Below are positions 12,496 to 36,826 of a DNA stretch of 64,000 nucleotides, in pieces. The DNA comes from Aporhodopirellula rubra. GTDB taxonomy: Bacteria; Planctomycetota; Planctomycetia; Pirellulales; Pirellulaceae. The translations under genes and the position numbers were made by a program. The notes below the pieces were generated by a model. It saw nothing but the letters and a program-made list of their open reading frames with translations, did no database searches and was not told where the DNA came from. Every line of letters starts with the position of its first letter. Positions within the stretch are counted from its first letter, which is position 1. The stretch lies in NCBI RefSeq assembly GCF_014192335.1, contig NZ_JACHXU010000014.1, forward strand, positions 179,946 to 243,945. The letters are read 5' to 3'.

Positions 12496-14658
12496 CTAAT
12501 CAGATGCTGGCCCGAGGTGTGTGTCACGGTCCCCCCGGATTACCTCGATCGACTCTGGCAGGCTTGCGATCTGAGATTCCGGAATCGCGTCAGGATCCAG
12601 ATAGAGCCGCCGCAGTGTTCGGTTGTTGAGCAACGGAGAGAGGTCCTTGACCGGCGTTTGGCGAATATCGAGCTCCAGGAGTTGCAAACTGCGCAGCTCG
12701 GACAAGTCGCGAATACTCGTCTCCCGGAGATCCAGCACTTTCGGCTTGAGCACGTGTAGCAGGCAAAATCGATTCGGGTGACGTTTGGATGCAGCGGCGA
12801 AGGTGCGGTTGAGATGCTTTACGCCGATGCCCCGTAATCGCACCGTTGCGGAATCGGGATCATAAGACAGCTCTTCACCTTGCCAATTCGGGTTGTTGAG
12901 TTGCACCCATGCCCGTGTGATCGCGAGTTTGTCTTCGTGCGTGCGGTCATGGATTCCGTCGTAGAGCATCATTTTTTCAGCGAGAGGTGCACGCCAGCGA
13001 TCGATCGTCACCAAGTCTTGCATCAAGGAAATGAAGTGAGCGGTGTCTACGAACCCGTCCGCATTGCGATGCGGTAGATACCGTTCGGCGAGCATGACGA
13101 GTTCGGGCGTAATTTCCTTCCCGGCTGCGCTCAGATCCAGCGCGGCTTCAAAATCCTGAATCAGGAAAAGATTCCAGAACTTTTGATTCCACGCAAACGA
13201 ATTGGGCGGCGGATCAAAATCGAGGATCGAATCTAGCTGCACGAGTGCGAACTGCAGAGCAGATCGCATCTCGTCGTCGCGCTGCATGGCGGCGTCAATG
13301 ACAAATTCCGAATGTCTCGCCGCGGCAACGATTTGGGAGTAACGGCGTCGGTCGGATTCTCTCTTTTCTGCCAGGTACTTGGCCAAAGATGCTTCCGCTT
13401 GGCGTTGTGCTTCCTCTGCACGCTCCAACGCGGCAGCGGTTTTCTGTTGAGCATCCTCCGCGACTTGCTTCGCATCGATCGCTCTACTCTGTGCTTCCTG
13501 TGCGTGCGCGCGTGCGTCGACGGCGACGGCTTTGGCGGTCAATGCTCTTTCACGGCTTTCACTAAGCTGCCAAATGAAAAACGTGACACACATTGTTAAA
13601 ATAGCGAGCGATCCTAATGCGATTGAACATGCGTCGCGGTGCCTACGATAGAACAACGCTGCCTCGCGGCGCAAACTCGCTCGCTCGACCGAGGTGCTGT
13701 ATCCGAGTAGGAAACGCGAGATGTCTTGCCGCAGCAAGGCGACCTCTTGATAGCGATCGCTCGGATGCATCGCCATCGCCTTGGCAATCGTCGCCGCCAG
13801 CGGTGGATCAATTCCGGAATTCGCGGACTTTGATTGTGAGGGGGCTTTCAGTGTCAACAGTTCCTGCAACAGACAGCCAAGAGCATAGATATCCATCTGA
13901 GGCGTTTTGTGCTGCCGCGTGTCCTTTTGTTCGGGAGCCATGTAGATCGGCGTCCCACTGACCGATTGCAGGAGCGACCCATAGAGGTCAGGATCGAGAA
14001 GGACAGCGGACTCGCTTTCACCTTGCTCGCGAGCCATCACGACGCCCATGCCCCAATCACAAACCTTTACCTCGCCGTAATCGCCTACAAAAATGTTCTC
14101 GGGCTTGATATCCAGATGCAGAACGCGGCGTGAATGAGCGTAGGCGACCGCATCGCAAACTCGCAGGAATAGCTCCAAACGTTGATGCAGCGGAATTTCG
14201 TTCTTAGCCGGATCGTCTCGCAATGACCGGATCACATCGAGAAGCGACTGACCGTGCCTCAATTCCATCGTGAAAAACGGCCGACCTTGCTGGTCGATGT
14301 CCATGTCGAACAGGTCGATGATGTTCGGGTGGTTCAACCGCGCCGTCAGATGTGCTTCTCGCAAGAAAGCGTCGTACTGATCGCTAGAAAACTTCGGCAG
14401 GGGTTTGGCCATCGCAACGTGACGCACTGCTCTCGCGTCATAAACCCGATAGACCTCTTTCATCCCACCCCGGCCAATCAACTCGGGGTCCTGGTAACGT
14501 TGTTTGATTCGTGAAATCGAACAGTACAGAGGACAGATATCGTCGTCTGACTCCAGATTATCGTCGTACGCCTGTGAGGGATCACCCTGATCGAACAAGT
14601 CACTCAATATTGGCTTGATTCGCTGTAGATCTTCGTTTCGTCCGCGGCTGTTGTTCAT
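12496..14658 (-). CDS. Membrane Ser/Thr protein kinase with coiled coil and leucine-rich C-terminus
   Basis: 720 aa. Kinase domain at about 58-320: ATP lysine K85 (VAMAKPLPK), helix-C E101, catalytic loop HLDIKPEN (181-188), DWG (201-203) in place of DFG, APE (241-243). The residue before the catalytic Asp is Leu rather than Arg, a non-RD kinase. A single membrane span (about 345-363) is followed by an Ala/Glu-rich coiled coil (365-440) and, near the C terminus, leucine-rich-like strands (LRGIGVKHLNRTF, KVLDLRETSIRDLSELRSLQLLELDI). The region beyond the span would be extracytoplasmic. An ECF sigma gene lies 60 bases upstream on the same strand, a pairing known in planctomycetes where kinase and sigma factor act together; that coupling is inferred here. 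Confidence 0.93.
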   Translation of the reverse strand: MNNSRGRNEDLQRIKPILSDLFDQGDPSQAYDDNLESDDDICPLYCSISRIKQRYQDPELIGRGGMKEVYRVYDARAVRHVAMAKPLPKFSSDQYDAFLREAHLTARLNHPNIIDLFDMDIDQQGRPFFTMELRHGQSLLDVIRSLRDDPAKNEIPLHQRLELFLRVCDAVAYAHSRRVLHLDIKPENIFVGDYGEVKVCDWGMGVVMAREQGESESAVLLDPDLYGSLLQSVSGTPIYMAPEQKDTRQHKTPQMDIYALGCLLQELLTLKAPSQSKSANSGIDPPLAATIAKAMAMHPSDRYQEVALLRQDISRFLLGYSTSVERASLRREAALFYRRHRDACSIALGSLAILTMCVTFFIWQLSESRERALTAKAVAVDARAHAQEAQSRAIDAKQVAEDAQQKTAAALERAEEAQRQAEASLAKYLAEKRESDRRRYSQIVAAARHSEFVIDAAMQRDDEMRSALQFALVQLDSILDFDPPPNSFAWNQKFWNLFLIQDFEAALDLSAAGKEITPELVMLAERYLPHRNADGFVDTAHFISLMQDLVTIDRWRAPLAEKMMLYDGIHDRTHEDKLAITRAWVQLNNPNWQGEELSYDPDSATVRLRGIGVKHLNRTFAAASKRHPNRFCLLHVLKPKVLDLRETSIRDLSELRSLQLLELDIRQTPVKDLSPLLNNRTLRRLYLDPDAIPESQIASLPESIEVIRGDRDTHLGPASD

Positions 14659-14718
14659 CAGGTTGTTGATGTTGCTGAAATTTGGTGAATCAAAAGTGCT
14701 TCCTTCGCGGAACGAAAA

Positions 14719-15339
14719 TCAAGGCGTGCCATCGGGGAGTTCCAGTTCTCGTCGCAACTCGCACACGGCACGAACAAGGCGTTTCTTAACACGATGTTTC
14801 AACACGTACACGCTTTCCTCACTGATGTTCAATTGTTTGCTAATCTCGGCGACCGACTCTCCCTCGACGCTGCGAACAAAGACATCCACGGCGTTTCCCG
14901 AGAAAATCGATTTCAATCGTTCAAGAGCCAAATCAACAATATGCTCTTTCCACTCCGCTTCGATCCTTTCCTCGAGTTCAGACTGATCAATCATCGCTTG
15001 CTCGAATAAGAACGAATCCGAGCCGACGACGAGTCGATCACGCTGTTGTTGCCGGTGCCAATCCACCAACGTGCTGTGAATCAGATAAGACAGCCACGTG
15101 CGAAATCTGGCTTGGTGTGGTTTGCGTTGGTAGTTCACCAGATCTTTCCATAAACGCATCAGCACCAATTGGCAGACGTCATCGACATCCGATCGCGGAA
15201 CCCCCATCTGCGACAGAATCCGGCTGATGAACGGTTCGTAATAGCCGAGGAATTCCTCCCAAGCCGGGTGATCTTTCCCCGACTGGGCAAGCTCCAGCAA
15301 CGAAATCCGAGTAAGCAAGTTCTGTGATTGACTGTTCAT
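14719..15339 (-). CDS. ECF-type RNA polymerase sigma factor
   Basis: 206 aa. Sigma-70 region 2 covers about 25-100 (DVDDVCQLVLMRLWKDL, FRTWLSYLIHSTLVDWHRQQQRD) and region 4 about 140-200 (VRSVEGESVAEISKQLNISEESVYVLKHRVKKRL, the DNA-binding helix-turn-helix). No region 1.1 or 3, as expected for extracytoplasmic-function sigma factors. No anti-sigma gene is adjacent; instead a transmembrane Ser/Thr kinase follows 60 bases downstream, as in planctomycete ECF groups linked to kinases. It probably redirects RNA polymerase after the kinase senses an envelope signal. Targets are unknown; the sulfatase locus to the right is one possibility by position only. Confidence 0.93.
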   Translation of the reverse strand: MNSQSQNLLTRISLLELAQSGKDHPAWEEFLGYYEPFISRILSQMGVPRSDVDDVCQLVLMRLWKDLVNYQRKPHQARFRTWLSYLIHSTLVDWHRQQQRDRLVVGSDSFLFEQAMIDQSELEERIEAEWKEHIVDLALERLKSIFSGNAVDVFVRSVEGESVAEISKQLNISEESVYVLKHRVKKRLVRAVCELRRELELPDGTP

Positions 15340-17082: not shown

Positions 17083-18435
17083 TCAATTCCACTGGACCTT
17101 ACCTTCACTCTTTTCGACGTCGATCCACACCGATGCGTGCTCGAATTCGCGGGTATAGCGATAGCCCTCTTTCACGGCGGGACCCTTGGGAGGACCGAGT
17201 CGCTTGCTGTATTCGGGCAGAGACTTTAACCAGAGACCGCTCTGGCAGATTTCGCTTTTGCCTCGCGTGTCGACGCAGTAGCCGTCGTTCAAAAACAAGT
17301 AGCTGTATTTCTCCGCACATATTAAAAAGAGGGCGAGCTTGAAGTTGAGTTCGTCCTGTTGGATCTTTGAAACGTCGTCGATTCGGGCGTGTACTTCATC
17401 GACACCGTCCGACACGCTGCTTTCGCCCATGGCCATCGTCATCGCGATGATCTTTCCCTGCCGTGCAGCCTGCTGCGTTGCGTTGATTCCTCTGACGAGA
17501 TAGTCAGCCCTACTCAGGTTCGTCCCCGCGGGCGTGGTAAAGCACTCCAGATACGAACCGTCGAAATAGTTCGTGAACTCAAGTCCCCCGTCTTCAAACC
17601 GGGCTCGGATGATATTCGCGAGCATCAATTTTTCGGGGCCCAGTGCTGTGCGTGTTTCCGTCATCATCTCGTGGAAACCGTCGACGGTCTGTTGTTTCTT
17701 ATTCGGCGGCAATTGCCGCTCCAAGAATGAAGACAACACTTTGATGTTGCCGTCGAGAAACAAACCGTCGACGTAAGGGCTTTTGCAAACGTCCGTCGCG
17801 GCCGTTACCCACCAATCGCGAAGCTCGGCGTTGGAGGTGTCGTAAGCCCGACTTTTGCCCCGGATCAATTTGTCGTTTCCGCGTTTGTCTACCAAATACC
17901 AATTGGGAATGTCGGCAAGTTGCTTGTCGAAGCTGTACGTTCCGTAGTGGACGATGACGTTGCGATAGAACAACACTTTCGCCACCGGGTTGATTTGCTT
18001 GATCGCTTTGGCCGCTTCGATCGTTCCCTCGTCGGTGGAACCGTACGCTCGAGATCCTGTGGTCTTCTCCAAAGTGATCAGCGGGAAATCGGCGAGGTAG
18101 TTCAACTCCTGGTCGGTAAACGCATCCACTTTCCGAATGTGCATGTAAAGAGGAATCGTGTCCCAACTAAAAGCGGGCATTCGCGATGAGGTGTCACTCT
18201 GATTGACGTCATTGAGGGCGTCCACGGCCAATTTCTGTGATGCTTCGGAGAGCATTCTGATCGGAAACGTGAATTGTCGCCCATCCGACCTTTTGACGGT
18301 GAGTTCGTCGGCGTTCAGTTCGAGCACATCGACTTGAATGGTTCGGCCGAGTTTGTCCACCAAGTCGACCGCGGCAACAGACTGCACCAGGCTGAACACG
18401 AGAACCCATGCCGTGAAAATTGCTTTGAAGGTCAT
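17083..18435 (-). CDS. Secreted GHL15-type putative glycoside hydrolase with SHD1 domain
   Basis: 450 aa from the ATG at 18435 (AGAGGA is 8-13 bases upstream); signal peptide about 1-22. Residues about 24-66 (DKLGRTIQVDVLELNADELTVKRSDGRQFTFP, written here over two strands) form an SHD1-like domain frequent in planctomycete secreted proteins. The rest is a TIM-barrel-like putative glycosyl hydrolase of the GHL15 kind: FSWDTIPLYMHIRKV, VAKVLFYRNV, DVCKSPYVDGLFLDGN with a likely catalytic Asp, EKLMLANIIRAR. The C-terminal REFEHASVWIDV block is shared with the end of the fusion protein at 29882-33220, so the two are paralogues. It lies 11 bases after the sulfatase gene stop, in one operon. Substrate unknown. 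Confidence 0.82.
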   Translation of the reverse strand: MTFKAIFTAWVLVFSLVQSVAAVDLVDKLGRTIQVDVLELNADELTVKRSDGRQFTFPIRMLSEASQKLAVDALNDVNQSDTSSRMPAFSWDTIPLYMHIRKVDAFTDQELNYLADFPLITLEKTTGSRAYGSTDEGTIEAAKAIKQINPVAKVLFYRNVIVHYGTYSFDKQLADIPNWYLVDKRGNDKLIRGKSRAYDTSNAELRDWWVTAATDVCKSPYVDGLFLDGNIKVLSSFLERQLPPNKKQQTVDGFHEMMTETRTALGPEKLMLANIIRARFEDGGLEFTNYFDGSYLECFTTPAGTNLSRADYLVRGINATQQAARQGKIIAMTMAMGESSVSDGVDEVHARIDDVSKIQQDELNFKLALFLICAEKYSYLFLNDGYCVDTRGKSEICQSGLWLKSLPEYSKRLGPPKGPAVKEGYRYTREFEHASVWIDVEKSEGKVQWN

Positions 18436-18446
18436 CACACTATCCT

Positions 18447-20060
18447 CTACTTGGCTAGCTCGGTGACGAGTTCCTGGCAACGGTTACGATATCTCGCAAG
18501 CACTGCTTCGTACTCTGGATTGGACGCGAGGTTGGTCTGCTCCTTGGGATCGTCCTTGATATGGAAAAGCTCCTCGAACACGGGCTGTTCTCCGTTGATC
18601 GATGCGTCGGGGAGGTATTCCAGCCGATCGTTTTCTTTCGAAAAGTATCGGATGTACTTCCACTCGCTGCTTCGAACAGCTTCCATTCGAGGGTAGCCCT
18701 GGTCGGTAAAAAGATTCTCGCAAAAGACCTCCTTCCGCCATGAGATCGCATTGCCTTGCATCAGTGGAACCATGCTCTTGCCCTGGTAGGTGTCCGGCAC
18801 GCTTAGACCGCACATTTGCAAGATGGTCGCCGGCAAATCTTGACCGACCACCAATTCATCCACCGTTGTGCCACGCTGCCGTTCGGTGAGAAACGGAGAA
18901 TAGAAGATCATCGGAATGCGGACGCACTCGTCGTACAGAAACGTTTTTCCGCCGAGCCCGTGCTCACCGAGCAATAAACCGTGATCGGAGGCAAAGACGA
19001 TGATGGTGTTGTCTGCAATCCCCATGTCGTCCAATTGTTTTCGTAGTTTGCCGAGCATCATGTCGATTGCGGTGACGGCGCGTGCCATCTTGGTCTTCTT
19101 ACTTAACAACGCGGATGGATTGGTCGTGCGATAATAGCCCATCAACTCGTCCTGGCGAAAAACCGTCTGCGGCAGCGGCACGTTGATGTTCGGATAACCT
19201 TCAGGGAAAACGAAATCGTCTTTCCGGTCGCTGTACAACGTGCGGTACATCTCAGGGTCGGTGTCCTTTGCTCCCATGCCACCGATGCTGGAGGCGTGAG
19301 GTAAATTGACGTTCAGTGAGAGTGCGAACGGTTTGGTCTGATCCCGGCGGTGCAGGAAATCTGTCACGGACTGGTGAGCGGTATCGAAAAAGTAGTCTTT
19401 GTCTTTCCCTGGTCGCATGAATGCTTCGGTCGCCTCGAAAATGCCTTCGATCTGAGAACTCTGCTTGAGGTTTTGGAACTCTTTGTGATTCATCAAATCA
19501 AAACCAAGGTGGCCTCCCTTCATGTAGCAGAAGTCGATGTTCTCTTTCATGTAGCGATTGCGTTCCTTCGCCGGACCAATCGTCGCGTGATGCTTTCCGA
19601 TGTAACCGGTGAAATAGCCTGCGGACTTCAACTGCATGATCCAACTGCGGTCGAACACGTCGTGCGGAATATGGTTCTTGGAAACGTGATAGAACCCCTG
19701 CCGGTTTTTACGCTCCCATTGGCCGGTGAAGAAGTTGCTACGACTCGGCCCACAGATTGGGCTGGTGATGAAGGCGTTGCGGAAGAAAACACCTTCCGCC
19801 GCCAACTGATCAATATTCGGCGTCTTCGTCACCGGATGCCCGGTCATGCTAAGCGAATCGAATCGTTGGTCATCGGTTTTAATGAAGATGACGTTGGGCT
19901 GGATCGATTGGCTGGGGGTGGTCGACGCGACCAACGTGTCAGCTTCTTCAATCGGTGCTTTTCCTGAAAGCCCGGACGATCGATTCGGCCGTTCGGCCGC
20001 GAAGCACTGGGCCGAGATCACAACGAACAAGAGCAGCCATCGACTATAAAACGAATTCAT
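18447..20060 (-). CDS. Secreted sulfatase
   Basis: 537 aa, signal peptide about 1-21. Metal strand NVIFIKTDDQRFDSL (56-70), active-site motif CGPSR (103-107) with the cysteine destined to become formylglycine, YIGKHHATIGP with lysine and histidine, and ASDHGLLLGEHGLGGKTFLYDE later on: a complete type I (S1) sulfatase. It should remove sulfate esters from a polysaccharide in the periplasm-like space or outside. The stop is 11 bases before the GHL15 start; upstream lies the inverted REP-like pair that separates it from the GH29-sulfatase fusion gene. Confidence 0.96.
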   Translation of the reverse strand: MNSFYSRWLLLFVVISAQCFAAERPNRSSGLSGKAPIEEADTLVASTTPSQSIQPNVIFIKTDDQRFDSLSMTGHPVTKTPNIDQLAAEGVFFRNAFITSPICGPSRSNFFTGQWERKNRQGFYHVSKNHIPHDVFDRSWIMQLKSAGYFTGYIGKHHATIGPAKERNRYMKENIDFCYMKGGHLGFDLMNHKEFQNLKQSSQIEGIFEATEAFMRPGKDKDYFFDTAHQSVTDFLHRRDQTKPFALSLNVNLPHASSIGGMGAKDTDPEMYRTLYSDRKDDFVFPEGYPNINVPLPQTVFRQDELMGYYRTTNPSALLSKKTKMARAVTAIDMMLGKLRKQLDDMGIADNTIIVFASDHGLLLGEHGLGGKTFLYDECVRIPMIFYSPFLTERQRGTTVDELVVGQDLPATILQMCGLSVPDTYQGKSMVPLMQGNAISWRKEVFCENLFTDQGYPRMEAVRSSEWKYIRYFSKENDRLEYLPDASINGEQPVFEELFHIKDDPKEQTNLASNPEYEAVLARYRNRCQELVTELAK

Positions 20061-20209: not shown

Positions 20210-23200
20210 CTAGTTGGCGGGTTGTTTGCGTTTTTGTTCTTTCGCTTCATTGCTGCTGATGTCTTGCGATTTCGAAACGTTCGTTTTTTCCAAGCCATCA
20301 TTCGGCTGATCAGAGAAACGATAGGGATCAAAGTGTTTGCGCATCTCGTCGAGTAAGAGCTGCTTCATTTCGTCGAGTTTGTCAGCATACGTCGGATCAT
20401 TCGCGAGATTGGTCTGATTCGGGTTAGGCGTATGCCCGGCTAACGCGATCACCTCCGGATCGTGGTGCTCGGCCAACAGTTCATCTGGGTTCTCGGCCAA
20501 GTTGAATAGTTGCGTTTCACTCACGCCGTCTTCGGTGGATTCGTATCGAATGAGTTTCCAATCGCCATTCTTAACGCAGCGCATGCCAGGTTTGGCACCA
20601 CCGCAATACGCGCCATAGAGCACGTCGCGAACCGCGTTTTGCTTTCCTTCGAGAACCGGTTTGAAGCTAATGCCTTCGCTGGTTTTCGGTGCTTCGATCC
20701 CGGCGAGGTCGCACAGGGTCGCGAGCGCGTCGAGATGATAGATGTTCCCGGCAACACGAGATCCAGGTTTGATGCCCGGCCCTTTCACGATGTAGGGGAC
20801 ACGGAAGGTGTGTTCGTAGAGGTTCTGTTTGCCTTGCAGGCCGTGCCTGCCGATCGCCATTCCGTGGTCCGACGTGTAGATGATGTAGGTGTTCTTCAGT
20901 TCGCCCATCTGTTTGAGCTTTTCCAAAACGGCACCGATCTGGATGTCAATATTCTCGCTACACGCAAACTCGCGACCCAGCTCATTGCGAATCGTGCGTT
21001 CATCGCGATTGGCCCACACCCCGCTAACGTTCACCTCGTCGCGTACGTTCATGTCAGAATTGTTGAAGGGATGCTTCGGAAGATAGTTAATTGGCAGCTT
21101 CGGCTGTTTCGGATTGGCAGGCGGCAGGGTCTTTCGGTCCCGATGATTCACCGCGCCATATTTGCCTAACAACTCCGGCTTGCCATCCCGCGTGTCGTGG
21201 GGATGCGAAAAGCCGAAATAGATCAAGAAGGGATCTTGGTCGTCGGCTTCTTCGCGTTGATCGAGATAGGTGAGGACCTGCTTCGCGTGCCATGCGCTAC
21301 CTGACTCGTCCGTGCCGCCTCGTTTGGTGGAATCATGAACCACCGTGAACTTTGCGTTCGCGGCCGCGTAACTATTCCCCTTCTTGCAGGTTCGCATCGT
21401 GTCATAACCTGCCGCGTTGAAGACCGCTGCTAAGGTATGGTCCGCAAGATCTCGTGGCACATGATTCGGATCCGACTCCAGCGGATTGCGGCCTTGTTTT
21501 GGTTTATCCGGCACATGCCAAACCGTACGGCCGGACATGATCATATGTCGCGATGGGGTGCACACGCCGCCACACCACGCACCCATCTGATGGGCTCCAT
21601 CAAACACCAAACCCTCGGCGGCCAGACGGTCGATCACTGGCGTATTGAGCGTCGATTCTGGATTGTAAATTTTGAGGTCAAAGGGTGCTTGGTCATCAGC
21701 GACGATGAACAAAAAATTTGGTTTGTTGGATGCCGCGGCGTTTCTCGATTTGACAACCTCGACGGCGAGTTCCTGGAACGCCGTGTTTTCTCCACCCTGA
21801 GTTTCGGTAACCGGGGACACGGCCCAGACGATCCAGCGAAATTGACCGAGCGACTGACCCGGCGATGCTCGCAAAGATGCTGCCGTGAACGCCTTCTTCG
21901 TTTTACCTTTCGTATCAATCGTGCCCAGCGGCGTGAAATCGGAGAGATCCCAACCCGGATCAGTCGCCACGTCACTGCCGTACAGAACGAGTTTCTGAGC
22001 ACCGCGGATTCCTTTCCAATTGTGGGACCAACTGGTGATGGCCGAAACGGACTGCACCGAGCCCAGATCCATTTTGTACGCTCCGCCACGAACGCCATTT
22101 CCGAACACCGGCCCGATTCCTGTGGCAACGTTTCCGTCTGTCAGTGATTTCAGCGGATCATTGCGAGTTGCCTGATTCGCGGTGACCTTCGCGACGGATG
22201 CCCGGGTGGGCGGCAGCTCTTGAAAGCCATCTGCACTCGATGCGGTTTCAATTACCACGGTTGATCCCGGCAGCACGAAAGGTTTCATCGCGGGATGCGC
22301 AGGGCCCATCGGAACGACACGGCTCGTCGTATCATGCCCTTCCAAGTTGACTTTCTGTGTGCCTTTCAAAGCCTTGGAGGCGTCCTTCTGAATCGCGTTG
22401 CGAACGTGCTGTTCGCGATCCGTAACGATTTCAAACGTCCATGCATGTTTGCTCTGGCCGAGCATTTTCGGTGGCGTGATTTGCACGCCTTGCGGAGTCA
22501 TTTCCCACGCTGGCTTCGAGTCGGAACCGAGCAGCCGAACCGACGTTACCTGACTCGCGTTCCATCCCGCCGTGCCGGTGATCGTAAAGGGCTCGAGTGG
22601 CTGCGTCATCTTGATCACATACAGATTCTTGCCCTTGGTCGTAAAGACAAGGTGCTCGTCCGTCTGGTCGCTCAGTTTCCAATATCGAGATCCGTAAATC
22701 GCATCGCCGTTGATCCGCAGCCAATCGCCCATCGCGTGCAATCGTTCCAACTGCTCGGGAACAATCGTGCCGTCAGCCTTGGGGCCAATGTTGATCAGGA
22801 AATTTCCATTACGGCTGATGACTTCCACCATCTCGTGGATTACTCCCTCGACGGTCTTGTAGCTGTCGCCTTCGAGGTAGCCGAATGATGTTCCGAACGT
22901 CGTGCAGCTTTGCCATTTCGGTCCGATGACCTTGAGCTTCAGGTTGTCCTTTTCCAAACATCCGACACCATCGGGCCAATTGCGGTTTGCACCTTTGTTG
23001 TTGACATAGACATCCTGTCCACGCGAGGCACCGTCATTCATGAAATCCGTAATCATGCCACGCAGCGAATCGTCCAGGTACTGGATCTCTGGCTGCATCT
23101 GGCCTTCCCGCACACGATTGCCATCGCGGGTGTAGATCGGAAAGTCGTCCATCCAAAGAAAATCAGGTTGGTACTTTGTTTGAATCTCTTTCCAGCGAGC

Positions 23201-23947
23201 GACGTAGTCATCAACAAACGCTTTGTCATAGCTGAAGGGACCGTATAGCGAGGCGGCTTCGGGAACTCGATTGATCTCTTCGACGATATCCGGTCGCGGC
23301 TCACTGTGAACGACGTACTTTTCTTTCGCGAAGAAGCCGGTGTGGCGTTCACGGTGAAACGACGGCGCGTACTTGAGTCCTTGCTTCCGAACTGCCTCGC
23401 CTAGGTCGCCAACCAAATCCCGCTTCGGCCCCATGTCGACCGCGTTCCAGGGCGTCAGTTCAGAATCCCAGTTGGCCCAGCCGTCGTGATGCTCGGCCGT
23501 CAACACGATATATTTTGCACCGATGTCCGCGAACAGTTTCGCCCACGCGTCAGGATCCCAATTCTCGGCCTTGAATTCGGGGATGATGTCTTTGTAGCCG
23601 AACTCAGGTGGATGCGCTCCCCAACGCTGGTCCATGTACGGATAATAGTGCTGTGCATCGTCGTAGAGCAATTTCGGCACATGTTCTGAGTAACCGCGGC
23701 CGCCCTTTTTGTATCCGATCGTACTGTACGGTCCCCAGTGAATGAAAATCCCGATCTTGCCGTCATCAAACCAAGCCGGCACTGGCATTTTCTGCAACGA
23801 TTCCCAACTGCCATCGTAGGGCGGAGTCGCGGGGGCTTGGCCAGTGGCAGTGTTGCCGGCATGCATCAAGGACGCGACGATTGTCAGCACAACCATCAGT
23901 CGTGCAGTCTTGATCGCTATGAAACGTGACATTAGATCGGAGGTCAT
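20210..23947 (-). CDS. GH29 alpha-L-fucosidase fused to a sulfatase
   Basis: 1245 aa from the ATG at 23947; a further in-frame ATG at 24043 would put a long polar leader before the signal sequence (about 1-36). Residues about 45-420 are a GH29 fucosidase: GIFIHWGPYS (66-75), LTAEHHDGWANW (149-160) and the nucleophile region FLWMDDFP with D267. After a beta-rich part (430-570), about 590-735 looks like a discoidin/F5-8C-type carbohydrate-binding domain (SLTDGNVATGIGP, GGAYKMDLGSV). Residues about 742-1190 are a full type I sulfatase: NFLFIVADDQ, CTPSR (796-800), YTSDHGMAIGRHGLQGKQNLYEH. One reading frame carries both enzymes without a stop, so desulfation and fucose release are physically linked. 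Tail is Lys/Gln-rich. Confidence 0.95.
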   Translation of the reverse strand: MTSDLMSRFIAIKTARLMVVLTIVASLMHAGNTATGQAPATPPYDGSWESLQKMPVPAWFDDGKIGIFIHWGPYSTIGYKKGGRGYSEHVPKLLYDDAQHYYPYMDQRWGAHPPEFGYKDIIPEFKAENWDPDAWAKLFADIGAKYIVLTAEHHDGWANWDSELTPWNAVDMGPKRDLVGDLGEAVRKQGLKYAPSFHRERHTGFFAKEKYVVHSEPRPDIVEEINRVPEAASLYGPFSYDKAFVDDYVARWKEIQTKYQPDFLWMDDFPIYTRDGNRVREGQMQPEIQYLDDSLRGMITDFMNDGASRGQDVYVNNKGANRNWPDGVGCLEKDNLKLKVIGPKWQSCTTFGTSFGYLEGDSYKTVEGVIHEMVEVISRNGNFLINIGPKADGTIVPEQLERLHAMGDWLRINGDAIYGSRYWKLSDQTDEHLVFTTKGKNLYVIKMTQPLEPFTITGTAGWNASQVTSVRLLGSDSKPAWEMTPQGVQITPPKMLGQSKHAWTFEIVTDREQHVRNAIQKDASKALKGTQKVNLEGHDTTSRVVPMGPAHPAMKPFVLPGSTVVIETASSADGFQELPPTRASVAKVTANQATRNDPLKSLTDGNVATGIGPVFGNGVRGGAYKMDLGSVQSVSAITSWSHNWKGIRGAQKLVLYGSDVATDPGWDLSDFTPLGTIDTKGKTKKAFTAASLRASPGQSLGQFRWIVWAVSPVTETQGGENTAFQELAVEVVKSRNAAASNKPNFLFIVADDQAPFDLKIYNPESTLNTPVIDRLAAEGLVFDGAHQMGAWCGGVCTPSRHMIMSGRTVWHVPDKPKQGRNPLESDPNHVPRDLADHTLAAVFNAAGYDTMRTCKKGNSYAAANAKFTVVHDSTKRGGTDESGSAWHAKQVLTYLDQREEADDQDPFLIYFGFSHPHDTRDGKPELLGKYGAVNHRDRKTLPPANPKQPKLPINYLPKHPFNNSDMNVRDEVNVSGVWANRDERTIRNELGREFACSENIDIQIGAVLEKLKQMGELKNTYIIYTSDHGMAIGRHGLQGKQNLYEHTFRVPYIVKGPGIKPGSRVAGNIYHLDALATLCDLAGIEAPKTSEGISFKPVLEGKQNAVRDVLYGAYCGGAKPGMRCVKNGDWKLIRYESTEDGVSETQLFNLAENPDELLAEHHDPEVIALAGHTPNPNQTNLANDPTYADKLDEMKQLLLDEMRKHFDPYRFSDQPNDGLEKTNVSKSQDISSNEAKEQKRKQPAN

Positions 23948-24057: not shown

Positions 24058-25914
24058 CTACCGAGCGATCTGAATGTCGCTGAACGTTTGGTAGTCGTTT
24101 TCGTCGATCAACAGAAAGCAATAGGCGTCGATATCGTCTGGGATTTGGGCGCTGACCAAATGGCCCGAGGCGGCGATCGTAGCGGGGGTTTTCATGCCGA
24201 GACGCACATCAAATGATCCCTCACCGCGTCTTGCTTTCTTACCGTCGCCCCCCGGCGGTTGGCGATAAATCACGTAGGCGGTTTTGATGGCTGGGCTGTC
24301 GTTTCTCAGTCTCACGCTCGCCCGACGGCTTTCCTCTTTGAACGCCAGCTTTTGGATGTCGGCGGATGGCTTTGTTTTGCCCTTGAACGCTGGGTTGAGG
24401 TATGGGCCCTCGACCTGGTTTTCAACGAGATGCTGTTCGAGGTTTTCTGAAAGTCGCTTGAGGACGGGAGCGTATTCGGGCTCTGCTGCGAGATCGTTCA
24501 TCTCTTCGAGGTCGTATCGTTCGCCATCCTGATAGAGTCGATACAAACTGTAGTCACGAGTTTCGTAGTTTTTATAGAGCTTGAAATCCCCCTCACGGAT
24601 CGCGGCTTTCATCGCGTCGATGCCGTGCGGAAAGTGCCAAAAAAGGTTCTCTCGTTGCGTGCCGTTCGAATCAACAATCTGCTGGGCACCGTCCAGCAGG
24701 ACGGGAGTGATGTCCAAACCACTCAACTCTTTTTTCGCGGCCGAATCGATCTGAGAGCGAGTGAGGTTCAGGATTGTCGGGAAAAAATCAAGTTGGTTTA
24801 CCAAACCAACAAACTGTGTTTCCTGCGGAATTCCTGGCCCCGTGATCACCATTGGGACCCGGATCCCGCCTTCTTCGTCATGAGCTTTCCCGTACTTCAA
24901 TGGATAGTTGTCGGAGATGATTTCATTGGCATGCTTTTCGGCACCACCGTTGTCCGAAGTGAACATCACGTAGGTCGTTTGGATAAGCTTCTTGCCAGGG
25001 CTCCGCGGATCATCCGTCTCGTTGAGATAATCGACGATTCGCCCGAGGCTCCAATCCACCGTGGTCACCATGGACGCAAAGTACGGATTCTGCTGACCTT
25101 TCAAGGTCACATCTCCCGGTTCGGGAGGAAAGGGTTGTCCCAGTTTGTCGCAGTAATGCTCGAGCAACTCACCGTTGCGCGTCATGACGGGCCAGTGCAC
25201 CATCCAGTGAGCGAGGTAAAGGAAGAAGGGCTTGTCATCGCTCTGTTGCATGAACCGCACCGCGGACTCGGTGACGTCATCATAGGGGTACGAAATACCG
25301 TCCGGTTTCTTATCGCTGACGGGCGGGAATTTTGCTTCGCTTAGCGGATATTTGGGATCATCGATTGTTGCAAACCCCTTGGTTCGATCCTCTAACTTAC
25401 GATGCACCCCGCGTTCCTCGTGGCTGAACTCGAACCCAAAAAGAGACGAGCTCAATCCCAAATGCCATTTTCCCACGTGGCCGGTCGCATACCCATTGTC
25501 CTTCAGCGCCGTTGCCAACGTGAGCGCATCCATCGGGAGGTGCGCGCCGAGATAGGGTTCAACGAACTCCTCCGTCGGTCTGCCTTTCGGGATATTGGCA
25601 AACGTGACATGAGTGTACCTGAGCTTCCCGGGATGCTGGCCCGTCATGATGCCGGCTCGCGAGGGAGCACACGTCGGCGCGGCGGAATACGCTTGGGTAA
25701 AATTCATACCCTGCTTCGCCAGCTTGACGACATTCGGCGTTTCATAAGGACACGGATCGTCCAAGTCGTTGAGCTGGACGTCCTGCCATCCGAGATCGTC
25801 GACATAGAAGATCAGGATGTTGGGTCGTTCGTCTGCTTCAGCAGACGACAGAGAAAACGCTGCCGCCGAAGCGAATATCAGCAAGGCAAACAATGCGGTC
25901 GTACGTCGTTTCAT
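24058..25914 (-). CDS. Secreted sulfatase with C-terminal beta domain
   Basis: 618 aa, signal peptide about 1-27. Type I sulfatase: NILIFYVDDLGWQDVQ (32-47), CAPSR at 82-86, GHVGKWHLGL, and FTSDNGGAEKHANEIISDNYPLKYGKAHDEEGGIRVPMVI type motifs of arylsulfatase-A-like members. After about residue 490 there is an extra domain with VRLRNDSPAIKTAYVIYR and DIDAYCFLLIDENDYQTFSD. The same tail occurs in the proteins at 36827 and 39175. The protein at 39175-41088 is a close paralogue along the whole length. The next gene on the strand, the GH29-sulfatase fusion, starts 110 bases downstream. Confidence 0.96.
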   Translation of the reverse strand: MKRRTTALFALLIFASAAAFSLSSAEADERPNILIFYVDDLGWQDVQLNDLDDPCPYETPNVVKLAKQGMNFTQAYSAAPTCAPSRAGIMTGQHPGKLRYTHVTFANIPKGRPTEEFVEPYLGAHLPMDALTLATALKDNGYATGHVGKWHLGLSSSLFGFEFSHEERGVHRKLEDRTKGFATIDDPKYPLSEAKFPPVSDKKPDGISYPYDDVTESAVRFMQQSDDKPFFLYLAHWMVHWPVMTRNGELLEHYCDKLGQPFPPEPGDVTLKGQQNPYFASMVTTVDWSLGRIVDYLNETDDPRSPGKKLIQTTYVMFTSDNGGAEKHANEIISDNYPLKYGKAHDEEGGIRVPMVITGPGIPQETQFVGLVNQLDFFPTILNLTRSQIDSAAKKELSGLDITPVLLDGAQQIVDSNGTQRENLFWHFPHGIDAMKAAIREGDFKLYKNYETRDYSLYRLYQDGERYDLEEMNDLAAEPEYAPVLKRLSENLEQHLVENQVEGPYLNPAFKGKTKPSADIQKLAFKEESRRASVRLRNDSPAIKTAYVIYRQPPGGDGKKARRGEGSFDVRLGMKTPATIAASGHLVSAQIPDDIDAYCFLLIDENDYQTFSDIQIAR

Positions 25915-26091: not shown

Positions 26092-28236
26092 TTAAGGCAG
26101 AACGGCATCAATCGCAGCTGCAACGGCCTTGCCCTGCAGTTCCTGGCCAGCACGGTTGAAATGAACGTTTTTGGGGTGTTGGAGTTTATCGAGCTGTCCT
26201 TCACACAGTGCATAAAGGTCGTTCACTTCGATGCCGTTGGCACTCATGATTTTGACCGCGATGTCGTTGTACACCTTGGCGTTCGCCGGAAGCCGAGCCG
26301 GCTTCACGCCATCCGGATAGGGTGTTGTCGTGGCAAAGATCAGTTTCGCTCCCGTGGCTTTGAGCTTGCCGACCAGTGCGGTGAGATTCTCTTTGTAGGT
26401 TTCCGGGGAGGCCTGCTGCGGATCGTCAAACGAGTTTGAATTTCGACCGGTCTCTGCACGTACATGCTTCAAGTCATGCAGTCCCCAGTTGAAGTGAATC
26501 ACATCCCATTTCTGCCCGGCCAGCCAGTCATCGATCTTCTGAAGACCTAATGTCGTTCCCTGGCAATTTTCTGCTTTTTCTCCATTTCCAATGTGCGGGC
26601 GGAAAACGTTGGCCCGGTTCTTGAGATGATCGCGTACTTTCAACGTATAGGCGATGGAGATGGAATCGCCGAGTATCAAAACATTGGGCAGCTCGGGGTT
26701 CGGCTCGATTGCCCAAACACCTGTTGTTTTTTGCTCAACGTCAGAGCCCTCTTCGGCCTGATAGGCCGCCGCGTTCCGCCCAACGTTCGATTTCTCCGTC
26801 CCGCGTTTTTCTTTCAAGTTGGGATCGTCCAACTCTTCACTCAATGCGGTGAGCGCGGCACGCAGCTCGTTGAGTTTCGGAGCCAGTTCCGGATTACCGG
26901 CCAGGTCGTTCATCTCCTGCGGGTCGTCCGTAAGATGATAAAGACGATCGACCCCGATGGTCGGATACTGAACCAGTTTCCAGCCGTCCTTGGTGATCAT
27001 GCGCTGACGATTCATGTACGCCCCGTAGATCTCCGAATAGCTCTCTGCTTTTTCTCCACGCAGCAACGGAAGAATGCTTTGGAAATCCACACCGTCGGTC
27101 TCCGCTCCTGCCAGTTCGAGCGAGGTGGGCATCACGTCTTGCAAATAGATAGGCGAGCTGATGGTGGAACCAGCTTTGACGTCCGGCCCGATGACGAGAA
27201 ACGGAACCCGCACGCTGTGATCGTACATGTTTTGTTTGCCACTGAATCCGTGGTGCCCCACGGCCAGTCCGTGATCGGCCGTGAAGACAATGTAGGTGTT
27301 GTCGGCCTGGCCGGTATTCTCCAAGGTTTGGAAGATTTTGCCGATCTGATCATCCATGTGCGTGATGAGCGCGAAATACTCTTGCCGGTTCACCTTCACC
27401 GAGTATTCGGTGCGTGGATAAGGCATCAGCTTTTCATCACGTAGCCTCTTGCCACAGGCTGCTTCGGCATACGGATATTCCGGCAGCATGTTTTTTGGTA
27501 CCTCGATACGGTAGAGCGGATAGCGATCGATGTATTCCTTGGGAGCTTGTCGCGGGTCGTGGGGCGCGTTGAAGGCCAGGTACATGAAGAATGGCTTGTC
27601 GTCTTCGGCTGCCTGCTCAAGAAACCCAATGCTGTCGTCGGCGAGCACTTCGCTCCAGTGTTTCCCACCGCTCCAGTACCCACCGTGTTTGGTATCCCAC
27701 GGCTTCCATCCGTTTTCGTAGTCCGCCTCGTCCTTCGGGCGGTTGTATCCGGCCGGTGTTTGCAGCGGCATGCCTGCTCGCACATGCTCAGCCTCATCAA
27801 ATATGGCCGGCGCGCTAGTGGGAACGTGCCACTTGCCCGATAAGTAGGTGCGATAACCGGCCCCACTCATCCGCTGTGACCACATCTGGTTGTCGGAGAC
27901 CAACTGATTGAGATCTGCCTGCTGCGCCGCCCACACAAATCGGCCGGTATTGAGCATGCGGCGGCTGGCAACGCAAACCGCTCCGCCCCACGCGCCCATG
28001 TTGTAAGCATGTGTAAACGTCGCGCCACGGAGGGCGAGTTTGTCCAGGTTGGGCGTGTCGATATCGAGCATGCCGTGTGCGCCGATCGTTTCGTAGCTCA
28101 TGTCATCGGCAAAGATGAAAAGTACGTTCGGCTTTGCCGTATTGACGTTCGGTTCGTCTGCCGCGGCGAACGACATGGATGCCACTGCTAAAACTAGCGT
28201 GCAAAGTGTTATCAGCTTCATGTTGGATTCTTTCAT
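26092..28236 (-). CDS. Sulfatase fused to an SGNH-type esterase
   Basis: 714 aa from the ATG at 28236, whose first base lies one base after the preceding stop (TAACATG, coupled translation); ATG at 28221 is an alternative giving a shorter signal peptide. Residues about 36-475 are a type I sulfatase: NVLFIFADDMSYETIG, the motif CVASR (88-92) with alanine in place of proline, SGKWHVPT, FTADHGLAVGHHGFSGKQNMYDH. Residues about 515-714 are an SGNH/GDSL hydrolase: VLILGDSIS with nucleophile S525, HFNWGLHDLK with N583, and HPKNVHFN with H692. The Asp expected three residues before that His is Lys. Such domains are often carbohydrate acetyl-esterases; a combined desulfation/deacylation role is inferred. 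Confidence 0.93.
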   Translation of the reverse strand: MKESNMKLITLCTLVLAVASMSFAAADEPNVNTAKPNVLFIFADDMSYETIGAHGMLDIDTPNLDKLALRGATFTHAYNMGAWGGAVCVASRRMLNTGRFVWAAQQADLNQLVSDNQMWSQRMSGAGYRTYLSGKWHVPTSAPAIFDEAEHVRAGMPLQTPAGYNRPKDEADYENGWKPWDTKHGGYWSGGKHWSEVLADDSIGFLEQAAEDDKPFFMYLAFNAPHDPRQAPKEYIDRYPLYRIEVPKNMLPEYPYAEAACGKRLRDEKLMPYPRTEYSVKVNRQEYFALITHMDDQIGKIFQTLENTGQADNTYIVFTADHGLAVGHHGFSGKQNMYDHSVRVPFLVIGPDVKAGSTISSPIYLQDVMPTSLELAGAETDGVDFQSILPLLRGEKAESYSEIYGAYMNRQRMITKDGWKLVQYPTIGVDRLYHLTDDPQEMNDLAGNPELAPKLNELRAALTALSEELDDPNLKEKRGTEKSNVGRNAAAYQAEEGSDVEQKTTGVWAIEPNPELPNVLILGDSISIAYTLKVRDHLKNRANVFRPHIGNGEKAENCQGTTLGLQKIDDWLAGQKWDVIHFNWGLHDLKHVRAETGRNSNSFDDPQQASPETYKENLTALVGKLKATGAKLIFATTTPYPDGVKPARLPANAKVYNDIAVKIMSANGIEVNDLYALCEGQLDKLQHPKNVHFNRAGQELQGKAVAAAIDAVLP

Positions 28237-28237
28237 G

Positions 28238-29656
28238 TTAATAGTCCCCGCCCTGATCACTGCGGACGCAGGAATCACGCCATGCAGCTAACTGCTTTGA
28301 CATTTCTGCCACTTGTTCAGGGTGGGCGGATGCAAGATTATTTTCCTCGGAGGGATCGCTCAGAAGGTTGTAAAGCTCCCACGTTTTTCCGGCGTTCTTG
28401 CTGTAGAGCTTGTACTGTTGGGTCGTCCATGCAAGCTGTCCTTGTGACTCAAACCCGATGGACTGAGCTCGCTCCGTCTGCGTTCCGGCCAGTACCGGAA
28501 GCAACGAAATTCCGTCGAGTGGACGCTGGCCCGTGTATTCGACTTTCAGTTCGTCAAGAATCGTTGGCAGATAATCGCTGGTCACCGCGGGGAACTCGGT
28601 TTGGGTTCCCGCCTTCACGCGGGCGGGCCATTCCAAAATGCCCGACACGCGAACGCCGCCTTCATACAGCGAACGTTTTCCGCCGCGGAAGTGCCCTACA
28701 CTCCCCGGCGCCCTGCCTGGAGCCAACGCCCCGTTATCGGAGCCGAACCACAGCATCGTGTTCTCGGCAACCCCCGCTTGCTGCAGCGTCTCACGCAATC
28801 GCCCCACCTGCTCATCCATGGCGGTGACGCATCCGTAGTAATTTCGCTTGTAGGTATCGTACCGCGAATACATTGCGGCATATTCCGGTCCAGCCACCAC
28901 TGGCAGATGCGGAGCATGAAACCAAATCACCGTAAAGAATGGCTTGCCGTCTTTCGTCGCTTTCTCAATGAACGGCACCGCCCGATCCATGATCACGCGT
29001 GAGTCATCGCCATCGAGATTATCGCGGACAACTTCACCCTTCTCGTTCCAGTAGTGCGTTCCGTACGCAACCGCCGTCGATTTGTCCTCAATAAAATCCC
29101 AGCCGTTGTGGTTGTCCTTCAGCGGCTTCAGCATTGGATCCCACGTCGGCACCTTTGATTCGGTGGAAAAGCAAACCTCAAAGCCGTTCTTCCACGGCGG
29201 GGAGAATTCCTTGGTGTTGTCCGGCTTGCCCCGGTTGGCATCTTTCATCTCAGTCGTCAACGTGCCGAGGTGCCATTTACCGAAATGCCCGGTGGCATAG
29301 CCATGCTTCTGGAGCAGTTCGGCCAACGTCAGCTCTTCGCTTTTTAGATGTCCTTTGTTGGCAAAGTAGATGCCGTAGCGAAACGGATGACGTCCCGTCA
29401 GGCACGAACCGCGTGTCGGACTGCAAACGGGCGATGAAGAATAGAAGCGATTGAACTGCAATCCCGCCGCCGCCATGGCATCGAGCTGCGGCGTTTTAAT
29501 CGGCGACTTAGGGTTGAAGCAATGAACATCACCCCAGCCGAGATCGTCCGCCATCATCAAAACAATGTTGGGCCGCGCCGGCTCAGCTTGCACCGTCCCG
29601 GTCAACAGCGAGACAGCGATCAGAAGTAAGCAACCAATTCTAATTTGATGTCTCAT
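28238..29656 (-). CDS. Secreted sulfatase
   Basis: 472 aa from the ATG at 29656, which opens a signal peptide (MRHQIRIGCLLLIAVSLLTG); a longer in-frame start at 29737 would add 27 polar residues. Type I sulfatase: NIVLMMADDLGWGDVHCFNP (30-49), CSPTR at 78-82, TGHFGKWHLGTL, FGSDNGALAP and a compact C terminus, close in layout to arylsulfatase A/N-acetylgalactosamine-6-sulfatase-like enzymes. Its TAA stop is one base from the next start, so it is translationally coupled to the sulfatase-SGNH gene. A gap of 225 bases separates it from the GH141-like fusion upstream. Confidence 0.95.
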   Translation of the reverse strand: MRHQIRIGCLLLIAVSLLTGTVQAEPARPNIVLMMADDLGWGDVHCFNPKSPIKTPQLDAMAAAGLQFNRFYSSSPVCSPTRGSCLTGRHPFRYGIYFANKGHLKSEELTLAELLQKHGYATGHFGKWHLGTLTTEMKDANRGKPDNTKEFSPPWKNGFEVCFSTESKVPTWDPMLKPLKDNHNGWDFIEDKSTAVAYGTHYWNEKGEVVRDNLDGDDSRVIMDRAVPFIEKATKDGKPFFTVIWFHAPHLPVVAGPEYAAMYSRYDTYKRNYYGCVTAMDEQVGRLRETLQQAGVAENTMLWFGSDNGALAPGRAPGSVGHFRGGKRSLYEGGVRVSGILEWPARVKAGTQTEFPAVTSDYLPTILDELKVEYTGQRPLDGISLLPVLAGTQTERAQSIGFESQGQLAWTTQQYKLYSKNAGKTWELYNLLSDPSEENNLASAHPEQVAEMSKQLAAWRDSCVRSDQGGDY

Positions 29657-29881
29657 TAGACCACTGTAGGAATGCACCGGAGGCAGATCAGAATGCAGTG
29701 CCGGGGGGAGGTTTTTCGTTTTCAATTCCAGAATCATTTCGATATCGTCGATCGTGTCGCGGTACGGCTTGGAACTCTTGAGTCGAAACGGTGTGGGGCG
29801 TTCTGATTCGTTGTCATCAACGCACCAGCGAAGCGGTGTTCAATGATCATGTCATCATCCTTTCACGCACCGATCTACTCA

Positions 29882-32800: not shown

Positions 32801-33220
32801 TGCATCCGGTGCGGACTCGAGTCGCTTCCAACCGGTCACCGGCAGTCCCGAGCTGACGACGGGATGCTCGCCCGGAAAGGCCGCAATCGTCAAATAGGCG
32901 GGGCTCGAGATCTCACCGGATCCATATGATTCAAATGGTTCGACATCGGACGTTGGCGCACGCCCGTCTTCCAATCCGAGCACCAACGTTTGGGTGACTT
33001 GATGACGTCCCCCGCGAAGATAAATCGTCGAAGGCTCCTGGTTTCCGGATTCCCGCAATGCTCTCAAAGCCTCAACGGCTGCTGACAGCGATTCCATGGG
33101 TTTTGAAATTGTGCCAGGATTCGTATCGTTCCCCGCCGGACTCACATAGAGAACCGCCGCCTGCACGGAAACGATCGCGGAAAGAAAACTCGTCGTTAGA
33201 ATCAGTAGCCGTGTCTTCAT
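29882..33220 (-). CDS. GH141-like parallel beta-helix glycosidase fused to a GHL15 domain
   Basis: 1112 aa, signal peptide about 1-21. The N-terminal 730 residues start with VLYVSPAGNDTNPGT and run into a right-handed parallel beta-helix (RNRIADCEFAHLGEAGI, RNQIAHNELHHSGYTAVLI, NIVRYNYIHDNLDHSL), the layout of GH141, a family that includes an alpha-L-fucosidase of BT1002 type and xylanases. From about residue 755 a GHL15 putative glycosidase domain follows: FRWDTVPMYSMFGDIQRTL, MKVLFYFNSAYAW, GCDGAFIDQMHGFSW, ending in REFEHASVWVNTETKQ. This second half is paralogous to the protein at 17083-18435. The ATG overlaps the stop of the GH29 gene by four bases (ATGA). Likely acts on a complex fucosylated glycan; substrate unproven. 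Confidence 0.88.
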   Translation of the reverse strand: MKTRLLILTTSFLSAIVSVQAAVLYVSPAGNDTNPGTISKPMESLSAAVEALRALRESGNQEPSTIYLRGGRHQVTQTLVLGLEDGRAPTSDVEPFESYGSGEISSPAYLTIAAFPGEHPVVSSGLPVTGWKRLESAPDALPGKSRGKVWVADMPEGMERFYTLYDGNGRLKRARDSGFLVTGKGDLRTLHFPNDALKNWDNLTDVEINIRPSRAWVINMLPLASVDEKSGVAKTSVSSTYAMGPIPGWVHNPSGKNVWVENTLEGLDEPGEWVVNTKTRKVYLWPSDPASNGSPQGILAPSTSELIRVEGEIDYDGPADTPVRGIAFEGLTFTHGDRYAWTNDETRLGWGMQHDWDLFDRPTALLRFRGAEACVVNDCRFVDSGGTGVRLDLHAQRNRIADCEFAHLGEAGILLAGYGPGTKDVHHHNTILDNHIHHFSEITWHSPGIWAWQSGRNQIAHNELHHSGYTAVLITNRVEPDRSLNGEGGKTIRQNEIPEAVKAGVRETYENWKVREKYNHARHNLLEYNEISHCVQLLSDGNAVYVSGAGTGNIVRYNYIHDNLDHSLPAAIRCDDDQHETLIHGNVLDNNFGFAAGIASKGVNDITNNFIVNPLTPPKKGYISFEWVRVNGSKVRHNILVSHPDGGKAYGETPLARTEDGDPRVEETEMDSNLYFHPKDAHWVDEHLSKMRAVGKERASLFADPMFADSENGDFSFLPGSPALALGIEALDVSIMGRLKRNPFRISDGSVFVPQDYYPNFRWDTVPMYSMFGDIQRTLTPAEVEFIAARTDFICIEKSHGYEELGAAELGAKHEAKAFKQIKPDMKVLFYFNSAYAWPFTSYNKAFRPSKIDTNPELKKFLIVDSKTGELAHRNNTFFFDVLNADFREWWATTVAKGVAESGCDGAFIDQMHGFSWLRKDRSDEVEKAMGEMMALLKEKMGPGKILLGNNANQSLAKHVVPVIDASMFEHYGDKLLTKESLLQDWDDMLRFARAGKMSIFRIGVEYDPESRNRRKSRSSDRSSYSFAKERLEYYLACYLIGAQPYSYFQYGWGWTLSSGSLYDFPELQKPLGAPKGPYCRTTPNGWTFTREFEHASVWVNTETKQAKISWR

Positions 33221-36662: not shown

Positions 36663-36826
36663 TAACTTTCGAGAGTCCTCTTTGATCTCTTCGAAGGCGA
36701 CCGATAGCGAAATCATTGCTGGTGAGGGAGCGGGAATCGGCAAAGAAAGACCGATTGTTTTCAGTGGATTCATTTTCGTGTTATCGGCCACATTCTAAGA
36801 ACTGAAGCTGGTTGGATTTGACGACC

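Follow-up and report, generated by a model that had tools for sequence, protein, structure and literature searches.

A GH29–CBM32-like–sulfatase fusion polypeptide in Aporhodopirellula rubra: a probable two-step exo-enzyme for sulfated fucose-containing glycans

One gene of Aporhodopirellula rubra joins a GH29 glycoside hydrolase, a CBM32-like module and an FGly sulfatase in a single polypeptide, and both enzyme halves have their catalytic residues. With moderate confidence, this polypeptide is read as a likely secreted two-step exo-enzyme that acts on sulfated fucose-containing glycans. The sulfatase half would first strip the sulfate ester from a non-reducing-end alpha-L-fucose, or from a close L-galacto sugar. 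The desulfated residue would then fit the GH29 pocket and be cut off, and the predicted beta-sandwich between the halves would grip the sugar chain or set the distance between the active sites. The same molecule is therefore proposed as likely to desulfate a seaweed-type sugar and then remove it. The data are best explained if desulfation and defucosylation are physically coupled; we infer the position of the sulfate, the substrate and any benefit of coupling.

The fusion gene and its domains

The fusion gene is found on the minus strand at positions 20210–23947 of the window, i.e. the whole 64,000-nucleotide stretch of DNA analysed. The source assembly of the window is a draft of 75 contigs. 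An earlier note had described one frame of 1,245 codons with a complete GH29 domain containing D267, a binding-module-like region and a complete sulfatase with CTPSR, and all of these are confirmed by the sequence and Pfam matches or, for the module, by the predicted fold. The features below, and the neighbouring genes, are all on the minus strand.

Residues 1–35 (23843–23947) have a hydrophobic stretch and, as judged by eye, are a likely signal peptide region. In the orthologue comparison this region displays 29% identity, a free divergence beside the conserved GH29. The GH29 catalytic domain (residues 36–415; 22703–23842) shows a full-length PF01120 match that scores 303 bits, where the curated cut-off is 25.2, and covers profile positions 6–345 of 345. 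The nucleophile D267 is invariant in 118 of 118 GH29 rows and aligns with a position occupied by D in 7ljj and by N in 7lnp. Candidates for the acid/base are E332, found in 117 of the 118 rows, and D334, found in all 118; the alignment to 7snk and 7ljj is ambiguous by two positions at this point. A fucosidase C-terminal beta-domain (residues 427–507; 22427–22669) follows as a weak Pfam match, below its cut-off. As a member of the GH29 family this half is probably exo-acting, and it likely releases alpha-L-fucose. The best solved relative, 7snk, is named alpha-L-fucosidase. The next-best two, 7ljj and 7lnp, are named exo-alpha-L-galactosidase, which counts against a fucose-only reading; the 7snk alignment is nearly identical to theirs, which suggests that 7snk is their enzyme or one very similar to it.

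Linker M1 (residues 508–582; 22202–22426) has low confidence in parts of the structure models. Module M2 (residues 583–735; 21743–22201) is predicted by fold comparison of its model to be a discoidin/CBM32-type beta-sandwich. Residues 508–742 display no Pfam match at E 0.001, and the module is hence termed CBM32-like and not CBM32. When M2 was compared with solved structures by sequence, only two antibody light chains appeared (E 0.27 and 0.98); these are meaningless, and the fold comparison was decisive.

The sulfatase domain (residues 743–1166; 20450–21721) has the PF00884 signature CTPSR at 796–800 and metal ligands D751, D752, D1027 and H1028, in 39 of 39 near sulfatases, i.e. the close relatives of this domain. 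C796, R800, D1027, H1028 and K1040 are likewise kept in 39 of 39 rows, a set chosen by the CKxG motif. The usual HisA of the sulfate subsite is absent and is replaced by Gly857. Among 83 aligned domains, 40 have Gly and 43 have His at this position, and Gly is found in all 39 members of the identity cluster of near sulfatases, which is the evidence used for this residue. Gly857 is a variant within S1 and does not exclude the domain from S1. Loss of HisA is described as typical of S1_25, but HisA is also missing in an N-sulfamidase (PMC6315715), and a filing of this sulfatase as S1_25 from Gly857 and its match to 6hr5 was consequently rejected. The nearest solved sulfatase by both sequence and fold is 6hr5 (S1_25), at ∼25% identity, which does not prove the subfamily; solved S1_15 entries score 48–53 bits versus 104.7 for 6hr5. 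The full-length structure model has a pTM of 0.49, and the domain arrangement drawn from it was dropped. In the structure comparison of this model the list was filled by the sulfatase half alone, and the GH29 half is therefore judged by sequence alone.

Distribution and origins of the fusion

The earlier note considered the fusion unusual. This holds within the genome, where only one of 23 GH29 matches, the present fusion, lies in a frame of more than 750 aa. It does not hold across bacteria: both domains are present, in either order, in 46 of 276 relatives among the matches listed (no population estimate, since the three protein searches gave the best 120 of 369, 425 and 336 matches and two of them scored only candidates sharing most words), and the pairing itself was in print in 2019 (van Vliet et al., 2019; PMC6388578). 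Stand-alone GH29-module proteins of ∼710 aa make up 39 of the best 120 relatives typed.

Alternatively, frequent rearrangement in genomes rich in sulfatases might have produced the fusion as a by-product, in which case both halves would be useful and would share equal dosage and one signal peptide, with no catalytic coupling. Planctomycete sulfatases are reported to undergo much rearrangement and gene fusion, and for two strains the estimates are 34 and 21 multi-domain sulfatase genes (Kim et al., 2016; PMC4807772); the present genome has 156 sulfatase matches. Near sulfatases are also fused to other sulfatases (seven of 16 hand-picked GH29-less relatives aligned are in tandem with them) and to domains such as PF06439, PF03629 and PF13472. 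In addition, both domain orders exist, and thus no fixed geometry is required. Chance joining, however, should strike all GH29s, and the fusion is concentrated in one clade. Among the best 120 of 425 long GH29 proteins, from a search with the GH29 region alone as query, a sulfatase is present in 31 of 37 at 60% identity or above to this GH29, in 8 of 11 at 40–60% and in 1 of 72 below 40%. Across 26 Pirellulaceae genomes, a sulfatase is fused to 9 of the 28 copies of this clade but to 3 (perhaps 4) of the 238 remaining GH29 matches (at least 100 bits). These counts were tallied by hand from match tables, in which a single gene may account for more than one match, and they leave out two fragments in this genome (C42 and C6). 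The Fisher p for 9/28 versus 3/238 is 7.7e-8, with rows that are not independent. The by-product explanation is accordingly considered rather unlikely, and coupled action of the two halves is preferred.

The sulfatase check of the other GH29s covered frames of at least 776 aa. All three frames longer than 900 aa are sulfatase-fused, and seven of eight frames of 776–889 aa have no sulfatase. The eighth (G188:C983, 843 aa) has GH29 and sulfatase matches side by side in different frames in the stretch examined, and because of this conflict a fourth fusion is given as perhaps present. Of 18 unfused clade copies (one cut by a contig end), one has a near sulfatase in the stretch examined and seven have no sulfatase there. 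Thus the GH29 can evidently work without this partner adjacent.

The clade displays seven combinations of sulfatase type and position. A single origin of all 37 fused rows is rejected (AU p 1.7e-5). The GH29-module-near-sulfatase order (six rows) is not rejected as one clade (p 0.31), nor is the reversed order with a near sulfatase (eight rows; p 0.53), where the tree constrained to this grouping scored slightly above the free one and the free search was thus imperfect. Near-sulfatase fusions of both orders as one clade are marginally rejected (p 0.047). These p values are indicative, since the trees were built quickly and contain many weakly supported branchings, and since the groups were defined with the first tree already in view. 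For the first tree, 11 near-duplicates were dropped from 129 rows, leaving 118; for the second, 12 long-branched or redundant rows and one row cut by a contig end were dropped, leaving 105.

Tentatively, this one GH29 clade may have served, in two bacterial phyla, as a socket for at least five sulfatase families joined at either end, with each fusion recording the sulfate ester removed last before fucose release. If so, the pattern of fucan sulfation could be read from the fusions in a genome. Fucosidases can attack fucoidan only once many sulfate esters are gone, which makes it hard to degrade, and only a minority of sulfatase subfamilies have a known specificity. A clade joined to several sulfatase families provides pairs predicted to share one substrate, and could give sulfatase families a function. 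Relative to the open-licence literature, the pattern is the addition made by this analysis.

Gene cluster, substrate and reading frame

The fusion is situated in a cluster of co-directional fucosidase and sulfatase genes. Neighbouring sulfatases are at 24058–25914 and 18447–20060. Two others group with sulfatases fused to GH29 in other genomes. The first (26092–28278), itself fused to a GDSL domain, has a sulfatase domain 53–56% identical to sulfatases C-terminally fused to the same GH29 clade elsewhere; the second (28238–29737) is 49–51% identical to sulfatases N-terminally fused to a related GH29 (41–45% identity). The cluster also has a beta-helix/GH141-like protein fused to GHL15 (29882–33220), two stand-alone GH29 genes (33217–35058 and 35190–36791) and two more sulfatases (36827–38728 and 39175–41088).

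The substrate might instead be a porphyran-like, L-galactose-type sulfated glycan and not fucoidan, with exo-desulfation of L-galactose-6-sulfate at the non-reducing end and the GH29 acting as an exo-alpha-L-galactosidase. The names of 7ljj and 7lnp, and the nearly identical alignment of 7snk, are in keeping with this, as are the high rank of the exo-L-galactose-6-sulfatase 7lha among solved relatives of the sulfatase half and the one porphyranase-type match in the genome. That single match, however, stands against 23 GH29 and 11 GH95 matches, the cluster has two more GH29 genes and the GH141-like gene, and 6hr5 acts on rhamnose, a 6-deoxy sugar (PMC8511951). An L-galactose substrate thus appears improbable, and a fucose-containing glycan is favoured.

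An error of assembly or sequencing that merged two genes into this long frame can be dismissed, as the same architecture is found in three other genomes in stop-free proteins of 1,233, 1,221 and 1,221 aa (75–86% identity), which excludes the hidden stop that the earlier note had named as a refutation, and as comparison with the nearest orthologue reveals purifying selection on both halves (dN/dS = 0.07 in each) and, with low dN/dS, across linker and module.

Relation to known systems

BuS1_11 of Bacteroides uniformis (7lha) and the enzyme of 7ljj and 7lnp, which is presumably BuGH29, rank high among the solved relatives of the sulfatase half and the GH29 half, respectively. BuS1_11 and this exo-alpha-L-galactosidase serve one porphyran system. 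They differ from the present fusion in that they are separate proteins and act on L-galactose instead of L-fucose.

Pontiella desulfatans PDESU_04251 (P0027) has the same GH29 and module, with 71% identity over 58% of the query, but is without the sulfatase half. GH29/sulfatase fusions have been reported as PDESU_05015 of P. desulfatans F1 and RRSWK_03833 of Rhodopirellula rubra SWK7 (van Vliet et al., 2019; PMC6388578). According to their description, on which the comparison is based, these genes, like the present one, each encode an alpha-L-fucosidase domain together with a sulfatase; they come from the same wider bacterial group, and fucoidan is their suggested substrate. PDESU_05015 is assigned there to S1_15, whereas the sulfatase described here scores better against 6hr5 (S1_25) than against solved S1_15 entries.

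In Wenyingzhuangia fucanilytica, the exo-sulfatases SWF1 (S1_17) and SWF4 (S1_25) and stand-alone GH29 and GH95 enzymes are described as carrying out stepwise exo-desulfation and defucosylation (PMC6315715; PMC12786026). SWF4 shares with the present sulfatase a Gly in place of HisA (PMC6315715). The Wenyingzhuangia sulfatases and fucosidases are separate proteins, whereas here the two predicted activities are fused.

P36 of Formosa agariphila is a GH78–S1_25 ulvan enzyme whose S1_25 half, reported as 6HR5 (PMC9096561), removes the sulfate from rhamnose-3-sulfate at the non-reducing end and is joined to a GH78 rhamnosidase (PMC8511951). The present fusion has the exo-glycoside hydrolase and sulfatase in one polypeptide that characterize this bimodular type, but has GH29 in place of GH78. 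The two sulfatases are ∼25% identical, a CBM32-like module separates the halves here, and the biochemistry of P36 is known, whereas the present enzyme is known from its sequence. The P36 sulfatase unmasks the residue that the glycoside hydrolase then removes, and by analogy the sulfatase half described here would have the same role.

The fused protein and its conservation

The earlier note read window 20210-23947 (-) as one polypeptide of 1,245 aa joining a GH29 fucosidase, a middle module and a sulfatase. The search it proposed for the same architecture elsewhere found it without an internal stop in three further genomes: Novipirellula caenicola (86%), a congener of the window's source (75%) and Stieleria tagensis (76%). 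The fusion is real and conserved. R. maiorica probably has it as well, because its halves are found on two contigs (L031, L030), each at an end. Against N. caenicola, dN/dS is 0.073 for the GH29, 0.18 for the linker, 0.12 for the module and 0.069 for the sulfatase; the signal region, at 1.1, is free.

Such a fusion had also been called unusual, which does not hold across relatives. In a pool of 276 distinct proteins, among the matches listed by three protein searches, GH29 and sulfatase matches occur together in 46, with the sulfatase N-terminal in 35 and C-terminal in 11. The accessible text of a 2019 paper gives one sentence each to GH29/sulfatase fusions of Pontiella desulfatans and Rhodopirellula rubra (PMC6388578), and multi-domain planctomycete sulfatases were reported in 2016 (PMC4807772). 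In the open-licence literature, neither a biochemical study of a GH29/sulfatase fusion nor an account of its recurrence was found. The worth of the finding lies in a recurrent, clade-specific pairing and in its direct testability.

Recurrence and clade specificity of the pairing

Sulfatase halves were clustered at a 45% identity cut over 83 aligned domains. Among the matches listed, GH29s at least 60% identical to that of the fusion (the clade) pair with sulfatases in seven ways, counting both the type and its position: cluster A, the fusion's own type, at either end; clusters B and C N-terminally; cluster D C-terminally; and the singletons P0030 (C-terminal) and P0084 (N-terminal). Cluster E sulfatases are joined to GH29s of 41-45% identity, outside this clade. 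P0005, P0007, P0008 and P0009 have both near halves in reversed order (GH29 71-80%, sulfatase 76-82%). In P0025, from Crateriforma conspicua, the formylglycine position is Ser and not Cys, the residue in its close relatives L079 and L081. P0085, whose GH29 is 75% identical, is an entry in a set of eukaryote proteins (eukprot), through contamination or transfer.

Fusion to a sulfatase, scored as a label on a GH29-domain tree (118 rows, 117 of them labelled), requires 23 changes there, and 19 on a 105-row tree without long branches; these counts are blind to gain versus loss. Grouping all 37 fused rows into one clade is rejected by the AU test (p = 1.7e-5), and one clade for near-sulfatase fusions of both orders is marginal (p = 0.047). 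A single origin is not rejected for the present-order near-sulfatase fusion alone (p = 0.31), nor for the reversed order alone (p = 0.53). The tree, together with the differing sulfatase types and orders, supports several origins overall.

A search with the GH29 region alone listed 120 long GH29 proteins. Among these, a sulfatase accompanies the GH29 in 31 of 37 at 60% GH29 identity or more, in 8 of 11 at 40-60%, and in 1 of 72 below 40%. The clade was found in 26 of the 241 Pirellulaceae genomes searched, the window's own included. Nine of its 28 copies there lie in sulfatase-fused frames. The other GH29 matches in these genomes that reach 100 bits number 238, and 3 of them (perhaps one more) are fused to a sulfatase; the Fisher value of 7.7e-8, for 9 of 28 versus 3 of 238, overstates this contrast, since the rows share kinship. 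The GH29s at L100 2600-6088 (-), L101 1431-4694 (+) and L102 2309-5284 (-), 25-37% identical over parts to that of the fusion, also follow an N-terminal sulfatase, and the pairing is therefore not wholly limited to the fusion's clade.

In one further clade copy (L072 7103-12055 (-)), the GH29 is joined to a β-helix/GH141-like part within a frame of 1,650 aa, putatively two fucan-active GH domains in one chain. In the window's own genome, partial clade-GH29 pieces at two contig ends (L096, G000:C42:97-888; L097, G000:C6:403224-404021) seem to be another copy split by assembly.

The gene cluster and mobile parts

The fusion belongs to eleven co-directional genes (window 17083-41088 (-)), with six separate sulfatases, two more GH29s, a stand-alone GHL15 gene (17083-18480) and a 1,112-aa protein at 29882-33220 (-). 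The last, itself a domain fusion, joins a β-helix/GH141-like part (GH141_M, 31.1 bits) to a C-terminal GHL15. The separate sulfatase at 26092-28278 (-) is 53-56% identical to cluster D partners of GH29, and that at 28238-29737 (-) 49-51% to cluster E partners; the remaining four reach at most 33% to any compared domain. The former ends in a GDSL-type esterase domain, a possible coupling of desulfation and deacylation. Just outside the cluster, kinase-like and ECF-sigma-like proteins, read by eye at 12496-15339 (-), could be its regulators.

Genes fused in one genome and adjoining in another usually serve one pathway. Neorhodopirellula pilleata (L038) encodes the near sulfatase (78%) separately from the GH29 (79%), with the two genes on one strand and 1.3 kb between them. 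Counting against the one-pathway reading, however, the near sulfatase occurs in the retrieved stretch of only one of the 18 clade copies not seen fused (that of R. maiorica being cut by a contig end); some sulfatase is present in 11 stretches and none in 7.

The CBM32-like module M2 of the fusion, at 59-68% identity, is also carried by β-helix+PDZ proteins and by sulfatases (L099 6249-9191 (-); L034 5550-8516 (+) and 8561-10762 (+); L038 2-2749 (+)), which makes it a module that moves among proteins of such clusters; it has no Pfam family. The near sulfatase is found in tandem fusion with other sulfatases in P0091, P0093, P0094, P0101, P0107 and P0108. In the window's own genome its paralogue adjoins a cluster C sulfatase (L098 6036-7682 and 7706-9292 (+)), a pair fused in the first four of these proteins.

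Proposed action and relation to known enzymes

By sequence and by fold, the closest solved relative of the sulfatase half is 6hr5, the sulfatase half of the Formosa agariphila ulvan enzyme P36. Excerpts of the published work describe 6hr5 as desulfating non-reducing-end rhamnose-3-sulfate, and P36 as also bearing a GH78 rhamnosidase (PMC8511951). Exo-sulfatases that act on fucoidan and the GH29/GH95 fucosidases that help degrade it are described, in the text available, as acting by turns (PMC6315715, PMC12786026). By analogy with P36 and this stepwise breakdown, the sulfatase half would likely unmask a terminal fucose, which the GH29 half would then likely take off. The main rival on specificity is an L-galactose substrate, since named exo-α-L-galactosidase and exo-L-galactose-6-sulfatase enzymes rank high for the GH29 and sulfatase halves, respectively.

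For the unmasking of fucose, the sulfate-subsite His of S1 sulfatases (HisA) offers a weak hint and no more: its replacement by Gly (Gly857 in the fusion), seen in 39 of 39 members of the identity cluster of the fusion's sulfatase, may point to 3-O-sulfate as target. The same replacement is found in 6hr5, in P0030, and in SWF4, described in the portion available as an exo-3-O-sulfatase of fucose (PMC6315715).
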